From Chitinophaga pinensis (GTDB taxonomy: Bacteria; Bacteroidota; Bacteroidia; NS11-12g; UBA955), in NCBI GenBank assembly GCA_945871905.1, contig CAMBXL010000009.1, positions 1 to 64,000 of the forward strand: a DNA stretch of 64,000 nucleotides. The letters are read 5' to 3'. The notes beneath the pieces were generated by a model. It was given only the letters and a program-made list of their open reading frames with translations, did not search any database and had not been told where the DNA came from. How positions within the stretch are numbered: position 1 is the stretch's first letter; each line of letters begins with the position of its first letter. This document shows positions 34,379 to 52,102 of this stretch, piece by piece. The position numbers and the translations under genes were made by a program.

Positions 34379-34396
34379 TCCCGATAGCTATCGGGA
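34379..34396. repeat. Perfect 18-base palindrome TCCCGATAGCTATCGGGA
   Basis: Located in the 369-base gap between rlmB and the cyclophilin gene. It shares its TCCCGA..TCGGGA ends with the palindromes at 51129-51147 and 51230-51248. Flanks are CCCCTAACC and CCCTTAACC, themselves near-repeats. Confidence 0.85.
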
Positions 34397-34445
34397 CCCT
34401 TAACCATATAAACACTTTCAACCATTTAAACCATTAAACACCTAT

Positions 34446-34574
34446 ACAACTAAACACCCTTCGAGAACCTCAGGGTGACACTAATAACCCTTTAAACAAG
34501 TTAAACCCTATAAACCCCTAAACAACTCAACAACTAAACACCCTTCGAGAGCCTCAGGGTGACACTATTAACCC
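34446..34574. repeat. Two ~45-base direct copies of a CACCCTTCGAG..CTCAGGGTG palindromic unit
   Basis: Copies lie at about 34446-34490 and 34530-34574, nearly identical. Each has an imperfect hairpin (CACCCT, then TCGAGAACCTC or TCGAGAGCCTC, then AGGGTG) with shared flanks ACAACTAAA and ACACTA(A/T)TAACCCTT. The intervening DNA is simple AAACCCTTTAAAC-like sequence. A related fragment occurs at 42293-42360. No ORF in the 34213-34581 gap looks real. Confidence 0.8.
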
Positions 34575-34581
34575 TTAACAC

Positions 34582-39657: not shown

Positions 39658-39731
39658 GGCGGGGTAGCTCAGGTGGTTAGAGCGTAGGATTCATAACCCT
39701 AAGGCCGGGAGTTCAACTCTCCCCTCCGCTA
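39658..39731 (+). tRNA. tRNA with CAT anticodon (elongator Met, or Ile2)
   Basis: 74 bases fold as a cloverleaf: acceptor GGCGGGG/CTCCGCT, D arm GCTC..GAGC, anticodon loop TTCATAA, T arm GGGAG-TTCAACT-CTCCC, discriminator A; CCA is not encoded. It lacks the GGG/CCC anticodon stem of the initiator, so it is elongator Met or the lysidine-modified Ile2 tRNA. Two oddities: the innermost anticodon-stem pair is A-C (TAGGA/CCCTA), and pair 1:72 is G-T. Confidence 0.9.
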
Positions 39732-39736
39732 CAAAT

Positions 39737-39772: not shown

Positions 39773-39780
39773 ATATCAAA

Positions 39781-40065
39781 TTCATAACCCTAAGGCAGGG
39801 TCCGCCGCGGCGGACTACACTCCGCTACTAAAAGCTCGAAATTTATTTCGGGCTTTTTTTTTGCACATTTCATAAGAATAACACTAAGGCCGGGTCCGCC
39901 GCGGCGGACTCCCCTCCGATACTATTAAATCAAAAAAGTCACTAGGCGGTTTTTTTTGTTCCCTTATTCATATCCGCCAGTGACGGACCGCCTCTGTTAT
40001 TATAAATCAAACCGCCTTTAGGTGGTTTGATTTATTCCCTTATTCATATCCGCCAATAGCGGACC
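39781..40065. repeat. Array of four decaying tRNA-3'-end-like units carrying palindromes, interleaved with hairpins
   Basis: Unit 1 (39781-39828) begins TTCATAACCCTAAGGC, copying the tRNA anticodon loop onward, and ends ACTCCGCTAC, but its T arm is replaced by the perfect palindrome GTCCGCCGCGGCGGAC (39800-39815). Unit 2 (39878-39922) repeats this with CACTAAGGCCGG, the same palindrome (39894-39909) and CCCCTCCGATAC. Units 3 and 4 share CCCTTATTCATATCCGCCA and carry TCCGCCAGTGACGGA (39973-39987) and TCCGCCAATAGCGGA (40049-40063). Terminator-like hairpins follow unit 1 (39829-39861) and unit 3 (AAATCAAACCGCC/GGTGGTTTGATTT, 40004-40033). Confidence 0.8.
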
Positions 40066-50935: not shown

Positions 50936-51310
50936 GTTAATCCCCATGCTCGAAGAGCATCTCTGTGTCTTTCTCCTAATCCTCTCTCAGTGCTCTCCGT
51001 GTTCTCTCTGCGTTCTCTGTGGTTAAATCCCCTTACGCTCTCTTTGGTTAACTCCCCAAATGCTCGAAGAGCATCTTTGTGCCCTTCTCCTAATCCTCTC
51101 TTAGTGCTCTCCGTGTTCTCTCTGCGCTCTCCCGAATAACTCGGGAGTGGTTAAAGCTTTTCATTAACTCCCCAAATGCTCGAAGAGCATCTCTGTGTCC
51201 TCATTAACTCTCTATGTTCCCTTTGTGCCCTCCCGAATAACTCGGGAGTGTTCTCTCTGCGTCCTCTGTGGTTAAATCCCCTTACGCTCTCTGTGGTTAA
51301 TTCCCCCAAT
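50936..51310. repeat. CTCTGTGG-type tandem repeat array with inserted palindromes
   Basis: About 375 bases of degenerate 10-12 base units (CTCTGTGGTTAA, TGCTCTCCGTGTT, CTCTCTGCGTTCT) arranged in three longer copies. ATGCTCGAAGAGCAT occurs three times (50946-50960, 51060-51074, 51176-51190), each after CCCC(AA). CTCCCGAATAACTCGGGAG occurs twice (51129-51147, 51230-51248), interrupting units seen intact elsewhere in the array. TCTCCTAATCCTCTCT(T/C)AG is repeated as well. 50763-50935 shows nothing notable. The frame at 51176-51457 is an accidental ORF. Confidence 0.85.
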
Positions 51311-51322
51311 ACGTTAAATTTT

Positions 51323-52102
51323 TTATGCATTAAACTCCTTATTTATAAACTCACTCATCACTTTATACAACTCATAAAGCGGCTCATTTTTTTCCAACAA
51401 TTGAAGGTGGGAATTCATAGTCATAATGTCTTGCCTTTTGGCTGGACCTGTTTGTGAATTCTTTGGCCCAAAACTCAATGCTTGTTGAATACTTTGGGTA
51501 ATCAAAGGTTGCAAATAGCTAAAGTCCAATTGGTGCTCGTTACATATTTTTTGAGCGGCCAACAACATGGCATTCGTAAAATTATTGGCAAAAACAGCAG
51601 ACAAGTGATACTTCAATCGATTGTCTGAAGTTACGGTTACAATTTGAGCAGGTATGTCTTTTAAAAACTTAGAAATGGCGTTAAGTGTTTGGTTTGAGTT
51701 TCCTTCTATAAACAAAGGGAAATTAATGTTTTCAACTGCACTATTTACCAAAATAGATTGAAATGGATATATGACACCAAAATTATTTTGATTTTGAAGT
51801 GTATTAATAGACTGTGCACCAGAGGTATGACAAACCAATCCCCCATTTATAGTTTGAGAAACAGAGGCAATAGCATCATCTTTAACACAAATTAAAACCA
51901 AATCATTTTCATTAAATTGCGGCATTGAAGAAAGACAAGTTGCATTGACTAGTTTAGCCAAGGCTTCTCCTTTCTCTGTACTTCTTGCCAACACAGATTT
52001 TACTTTTAATCCATTGTGATGAAAAAATTTAGCGAAGAAACTAGCCACATTTCCTGAGCCAATAATAGTTACTTGTTCTATATTTAATGGCAATTCAGTC
52101 AA
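51323..52102 (-). CDS. Rossmann-fold plus DUF2520 protein
   Basis: 259 residues. N-terminal nucleotide-binding fold: VTIIGSGNVASFFAKFFHHNGLKVKSVLAR, with GxGxxA at ~13-18. The DUF2520 helical domain (~125-259) includes KYHLSAVFANNFTNAMLLAAQKIC and a TGPAKRQDIMTMNSHLQLL segment. The architecture is like F420-dependent NADP oxidoreductases or ketopantoate reductase-like proteins; activity unknown. Starts 7 bases after ccmF, so it is likely the last gene of the cytochrome c maturation operon. Confidence 0.85.
   Translation of the reverse strand: MTELPLNIEQVTIIGSGNVASFFAKFFHHNGLKVKSVLARSTEKGEALAKLVNATCLSSMPQFNENDLVLICVKDDAIASVSQTINGGLVCHTSGAQSINTLQNQNNFGVIYPFQSILVNSAVENINFPLFIEGNSNQTLNAISKFLKDIPAQIVTVTSDNRLKYHLSAVFANNFTNAMLLAAQKICNEHQLDFSYLQPLITQSIQQALSFGPKNSQTGPAKRQDIMTMNSHLQLLEKNEPLYELYKVMSEFINKEFNA

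Follow-up and report, generated by a model that had tools for sequence, protein, structure and literature searches.

Hairpin palindromes in place of a few bases within heptad arrays and partial tRNA copies suggest exchange of very small DNA units

In the 64,000-nucleotide stretch of DNA analysed here (the window), positions 50936-51310 are flanked by an MsbA-like ABC transporter gene and a DUF2520 gene and hold an array of composite units (50936-51306, forward strand). Each unit of ~110 bp combines CTCYGYG-type heptads, all in a single orientation, with one fixed hairpin, ATGCTCGAAGAGCAT, and ends in GGTTAA; the hairpin occurs three times (50946-50960, 51060-51074 and 51176-51190, all forward strand) and a second palindrome, TCCCGAATAACTCGGGA, twice. 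Read on the opposite strand, a unit runs from TTTAACC through the heptads, a short spacer and an extra heptad to ATGCTCTTCGAGCAT and the next TTAACC, with heptads such as CACAGAG, CGCAGAG, CACGGAG and CACTGAG standing 2-4 bases apart, and the heptad period in the arrays is not constant. Chance alone would be expected to place 0.05 matches to TCCCGAATAACTCGGGA and 0.04 to ATGCTCGAAGAGCAT in the window, and none of 100 shuffles reached the observed counts. The source genome (G000), assigned to the Bacteroidota, is a draft of 2.5 Mb in 31 contigs that was read in part, and genome-wide counts rest on pattern searches together with selected sequence stretches; further arrays of the window type lie mostly on contig C6 (7.4-8.7, 51.6-51.9, 58.8-59.3, 64.6-64.9, 106.3 and 107.4-107.7 kb), with one more on contig C18. 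An Rfam search of the window array gave no match above threshold, a single sub-threshold match to a mammalian RNA being disregarded, and the phage and plasmid records searched contained no relative of the array. Our literature search returned no relevant mention of the palindrome or of the array words, and mention of the GxxExxY family discussed below only in passing. Heptad arrays are prone to spurious gene calls and assembly breaks; a 93-aa open frame running through the array (51176-51457) is probably spurious, of the type that gene callers annotate in such arrays.

In every array of the genome that we inspected (on C6, C9 and C18), ATGCTCGAAGAGCAT (ATGCTC...GAGCAT) occupies the same position in the unit. 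Pairing over the six stem pairs amounts to 97.4% in a set of 19 copies, and in two of the pairs both sides have changed (ATACTC/GAGTAT and AAGCTC/GAGCTT), a pattern matched by 4 of 500 shuffles. Given this constant place and these compensatory stem changes, ATGCTCGAAGAGCAT is part of the array unit and not an insert in it.

The TCCCGAATRACTCGGGA palindrome is of another kind. All of its five copies in the genome lie within arrays; the three on C6 are of the G variant and the two in the window of the A variant. Within a heptad it stands in for ~1-3 bases between CTC and GTG, and heptads at two positions are affected. One window copy (51130-51146, forward strand; a hairpin of -7.4 kcal/mol as DNA) lies in the heptad adjoining GGTTAA and the other (51231-51247, forward strand) in the third heptad counted from GGTTAA, while an 'empty' unit at 50986-51021 (forward strand) has four palindrome-free heptads, CTCAGTG, CTCCGTG, CTCTGCG and CTCTGTG, before its GGTTAA. 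When paralogous units are compared, the empty form reads CTCTGCGCTC followed by TCT and GTGG, and the filled form CTCTGCGCTC followed by TCCCGAATAACTCGGGA and GTGG; between filled and empty heptads there are no duplicated bases beside TCCCGAATRACTCGGGA of the kind that a MITE-type target-site duplication would leave. The third heptad is filled in three units (two on C6 and that at 51231), the first in one (51130), and the fifth copy, on C6, sits in a degenerate unit; two heptad positions do not necessarily mean many events. A mutated copy, CTCTCGAATAACTCGGGGG, lies near C6:32893 inside CTTTGCG-type word sequence. The first-pass annotation had read both palindromes of the array as insertions: for the ~17-base palindrome the filled and empty heptads at 51130-51146 and 51231-51247 bear out the substitution of a few bases at two positions, whereas for the ATGCTCGAAGAGCAT type the constant place and the compensatory changes tell against insertion.

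One account of these copies is that the palindrome entered, or arose in, the array lineage a single time and has since spread only by duplication and recombination of units, as a unit variant. Three of the five copies do share a heptad position, and a single base consistently separates the two arrays (A on C9, G on C6), which is what one event in each array lineage and later copying would produce; indeed, unit copying after an insertion is enough to explain repeated palindrome copies within one array. We nonetheless consider this account rather unlikely, because one copy lies in another heptad, because sister palindromes occupy the loops of tRNA copies (see below) and because the same 17-mer recurs in unrelated repeats of two other genomes. 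In G038, a member of another family, the exact 17-mer is found in a pair of tRNA-like 77-bp copies, arranged in tandem upstream of a tRNA-Val gene; in G358 it lies within hairpin repeats, between CCTTCG and TCAGGATGA and between GTCATCCA and CGATGGACC. Among 395 sampled genomes of the phylum, it was found only in the source genome, G300 and G358.

Palindromes of the wider form TCCCGA-N4-7-TCGGGA are also dispersed, with 13 sites in the source genome against 1 for the reversed control pattern and, within the genus, up to 36 against 0 (in G005). A chance origin of the window palindromes is ruled out by the shuffles and this reversed-pattern control. The form TCCCGATAGCTATCGGGA has seven copies in the source genome, most of them in or beside word arrays of the TTAATGGT or CTTAACC type, and in the window one copy (34379-34396) lies beside an array of CTTAACC/TTTAAACC-type words. 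Adjoining that copy, at 34401-34576, is an 84-bp tandem repeat in which CACCCTTCGAGAACCTCAGGGTGACA hairpins and TTTAAACC words occur. Assigned by eye from their flanks, the 36 sites of G005 comprise 8 in tRNA-like copies, 14 in hairpin repeats of the CACCCTG/GTCGAAGGG type, 5 in a GGGTCCA..CGTAAAAATTT repeat, 5 beside CACAGATT-type words and 4 elsewhere, and in the GGGTCCA..CGTAAAAATTT repeat either CGCATG or a palindrome stands between identical flanks. Palindrome-free paralogs were found for 3 of 13 sites compared with 5 of 150 control positions, in what is a weak test. Among all palindromes of the contigs examined we found no preference for TC...GA ends, and a hairpin-loop rule judged by flank complementarity was unsupported, 4 of 33 sites exceeding the 95th percentile.

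The most distinct setting of the palindromes is in partial tRNA copies adjoining intact tRNA genes, where they substitute segments of 3-9 bases in the D-, anticodon- or T-loop. In the window, an intact tRNA-Met (cat) gene (39658-39732, forward strand) is followed by two partial 3' copies on the same strand (39780-39830 and 39879-39924), in each of which the T-loop AGTTCAACT has given way to TCCGCCGCGGCGGA (39801-39814 and 39895-39908); these two T-loops explain the TCCGCC-N-GGCGGA palindromes listed by the first-pass annotation. Two of the TCCCGA-form sites of the source genome likewise fall in partial copies lying upstream of their intact gene: next to tRNA-Met, TCACGCCCTACAGCGTGAC stands in for the D-loop segment ATTC and TCCCGATAGCTATCGGGA for the anticodon-loop segment ATAAT, and next to tRNA-Ser, TCCCGAAGCATCGGGA stands in for AAT. 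Further cases involve tRNA-Val and tRNA-Ala in G005, tRNA-Ala in G002 and tRNA-Leu in G072. Most cases came to light through their palindromes, so that their frequency is biased. At the tRNA loci searched, Rfam matched the intact tRNAs alone. In partial tRNA-Ala copies of G002 (L151) and G005 (L367:11207-11361), a different palindrome takes the place of the anticodon arm as well (TCCCGCAAGCAATTGCGGGAA and TCCCGCATAAAATGCGGAA, respectively).

Comparison of orthologous loci between species of the genus, which differ by ~8-30% of their DNA, shows how such places change. At the tRNA-Val locus a 5' tRNA copy with its palindrome is present in G005 and G003; what G006, G011 and G014 lack is the entire 64-nt partial copy and not the palindrome alone. 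At the tRNA-Ala locus the copy carries TCCCGAAAGCTATCGGGA in G005, TCATTATAGTTCACTCGAACAATAATGA and TCCCGATAGCTATCGGGA in G011, and, in G003, TCCTGACGTTAAAAGTCAGGA together with a TGCTGAC...GTCAGCA palindrome placed after an intact AGCTCATTTGG; the copy is missing from G006. This is direct evidence of palindrome turnover at one orthologous place, and not of presence or absence of a palindrome alone; none of the orthologous loci compared between species differs solely in that respect. Of the checks proposed in the first-pass annotation, the excess of palindromes over chance was thus found (13 against 1 and 36 against 0), and a locus differing only by its palindrome was not, tRNA-Val differing by the whole 64-nt copy. 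Its suggestion of an exchangeable unit is supported for the heptads, the tRNA-copy loops, the other repeats and the ortholog differences, and falls for ATGCTCGAAGAGCAT, which is fixed; the mobility of the unit is something we infer.

The unrelated stems among the palindromes at the orthologous tRNA-Ala copy would also suit a process in which palindromes arise locally with no donor, stalled forks leading to template switching or fold-back copying and quasi-palindrome correction then perfecting the product; such correction could equally yield the paired changes in the fixed hairpin. This process would not predict the same 17- and 18-mers at many unrelated places in several genera, and in the cases read the arms are not copies of neighbouring sequence, making it improbable as the source of these palindromes.

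Our main reading, to which we assign a probability of roughly 0.5, is that the palindromes (14-28 bp) are exchangeable hairpin modules that occupy short segments of other repeats and would be placed there in trans. TCCCGAATRACTCGGGA would be a hairpin module of its own that replaced 1-3 bases in a heptad and afterwards multiplied by duplication of array units. It would belong to a larger set of palindromes that, in the genus and order, stand in place of short segments of other repeats, most clearly in partial tRNA copies at the D-, anticodon- and T-loops. The modules would be non-autonomous, an activity acting in trans swapping a short segment for a hairpin. Two routes can be envisaged: hairpin DNA might be inserted into exposed single strands, or hairpin RNA might be joined into a cut loop and then copied back beside the source gene. 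The RNA route would account for the position of the tRNA copies next to their own genes and for the involvement of loops; neither a reverse transcriptase nor a ligase could be linked to it. Counting against the main reading, our searches found neither an enzyme nor a donor intermediate for palindrome placement, none of the compared loci differed between species by its palindrome alone, the hairpin-loop rule went unsupported, the paralog test was weak and the frequency of the tRNA cases is biased. Overall, the hairpin palindromes in place of a few bases within repeats suggest an unrecognised route by which very small DNA units are exchanged. If correct, these would be among the smallest exchangeable DNA units known, with empty and filled versions side by side near tRNA genes.

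Two further accounts are very improbable. The palindromes, being short, dispersed and hairpin-forming, could be REP sequences mobilised by a RAYT (Y1) transposase, and RAYT genes above the cut-off are present in 30 of 59 relatives. We reject a RAYT origin, since TCCCGA...TCGGGA occurs in 0 of 28 RAYT loci inspected with 1.5-kb flanks, where other REPs such as CCCGTAGGGATG are found, and since the one PF01797 match in the source genome falls below threshold (20.2 bits, cut-off 23). It is similarly remote that arrays and palindromes are regulatory RNAs or protein-binding sites under selection: the hairpins are stable, and two G005 sites (L343 and L346) are terminator-like with T runs, but the Rfam searches of array and tRNA loci described above argue otherwise, and heptad pairs are absent from most relatives and from all of the relatives' DUF2520 loci.

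The arrays themselves lead to a second, separable question, that of the genes they accompany. At C6:7382-8660 in the source genome (L061), arrays flank a GxxExxY gene (TIGR04256, PF13366) in inverted orientation, whereas the window array is one-sided with no adjoining TIGR04256 gene; together with the related arrays, the bracketed form leads us to regard the window array as a one-sided, gene-less relative. Scoring a bracket as a run of three CRCNRAG heptads within 400 bp of the gene at 80 loci of public genomes (L252-L331), we found a run upstream pointing at the gene at 31 of 78 GxxExxY loci and the reverse orientation downstream at 31 of 76. Both brackets were in the expected orientation at 18 of 74 loci, with the opposite arrangement at 0 of 74 and 1 of 130 among distal flanks. 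As labelled in the records, the bracketed loci include some from Bacteroidota, Melioribacter, Planctomycetota, Anaerolineae, Nostoc and an archaeal MAG, with the proviso that MAG contigs may be misbinned. The literature searched contained no description of GxxExxY genes bracketed by inverted CRCNRAG arrays in several phyla. Alignment of the upstream flank with the reverse-complemented downstream flank exceeded the 95th percentile of mismatched pairs at 32 of 71 loci, against 0 of 61 for distal flanks. Among the relatives of the source genome, the same alignment succeeded for 19 of 26 GxxExxY, 18 of 25 TIGR02436 and 8 of 24 RAYT loci, RAYT being the established example of a gene enclosed by inverted repeats, and for 0 of 29 DUF2520 controls, whose threshold is inflated by orthologous flanks but whose scores are low too (median 21). 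TIGR02436 genes (23S-intervening-sequence-type four-helix-bundle proteins) outside rRNA also lie between inverted arrays of other words, for example GAGTACAGAGTACAGAG and TTAGGGGTTAGGG (L209-L238). In two genera (L073 in G000 and L075 in G035), a GxxExxY gene lies beside the same glycosyltransferase gene with the words CACAGAG and CGCAAAG, respectively, as if the words at a locus changed together.

In GxxExxY proteins, the PD-(D/E)XK motif residues D, E and K do not vary. A search of the PDB by sequence gave no relative, and the predicted fold falls among the Cas4/RecB-like and Hjc-like PD-(D/E)XK nucleases, its best match being SSO0001 (Z 10.2 over 99 residues at 3.2 A; others below 8). The model shows a nuclease fold for GxxExxY, which by itself says nothing on function; that the protein may act as the mobilising enzyme is what we infer. 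A bolder and doubtful extension would join both lines of observation, namely that a general process in Bacteroidota swaps short loop segments of sequences that are repeated or structured for 14-28 bp hairpins, with heptad arrays and partial tRNA copies as its targets, and that heptad arrays form a widespread element family in whose gene-bearing form inverted arrays enclose a GxxExxY PD-(D/E)XK nuclease gene, paralleling RAYT/REP with a different enzyme. If our reading is right, two widespread protein families whose role is unclear, the GxxExxY nucleases and the 23S-intervening-sequence-type proteins, would be tied to inverted word arrays, and their function would be directly testable.

Several known systems invite comparison. 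The intervening sequences of 23S rRNA are inserts with complementary ends that replace the loops of rRNA helices. Similarly, the palindromes described here replace the loops of tRNA copies, and inverted word arrays flank TIGR02436 genes located outside rRNA; unlike intervening sequences, the palindromes have no coding content and reside in arrays and partial tRNA copies rather than in rRNA genes. Intergenic arrays of 7-base words are known as heptanucleotide repeats from cyanobacteria, Beggiatoaceae (TAACTGA, PMC4679880) and Geobacter (PMC2700814). The arrays studied here share the intergenic setting and the 7-base words, but their words are not strictly head to tail as in tandem repeats of the cyanobacterial type, being set 2-4 bases apart, and they form ~110 bp units that include a fixed hairpin, and flank members of one particular gene family. 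REP/BIME sequences are short palindromes in intergenic mosaics, with RAYT transposase genes between inverted copies (PMC3733652, PMC3116915). The GxxExxY loci resemble that arrangement in having a gene bracketed by inverted repeats; in contrast, our palindrome has no RAYT linkage, the bracketed gene encodes a PD-(D/E)XK protein and the repeats on either side of it are heptad arrays rather than REPs. The small dispersed repeats of Nostoc, attributed to Elhai et al. 2008, are reportedly units of ~20 bases that are dispersed, are regarded as mobile, have no genes of their own and also occur inside other repeats. They are cited in passages of PMC3116915 and PMC2884548. By that reported description, they are like our palindromes in unit size, dispersal, nesting in other repeats and excess over chance, and differ in belonging to another phylum, while the palindromes here substitute loop segments of tRNA copies and bases of heptads. 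By analogy, the Nostoc repeats, as reported, and the REP/RAYT systems would be the nearest precedents for what we describe.
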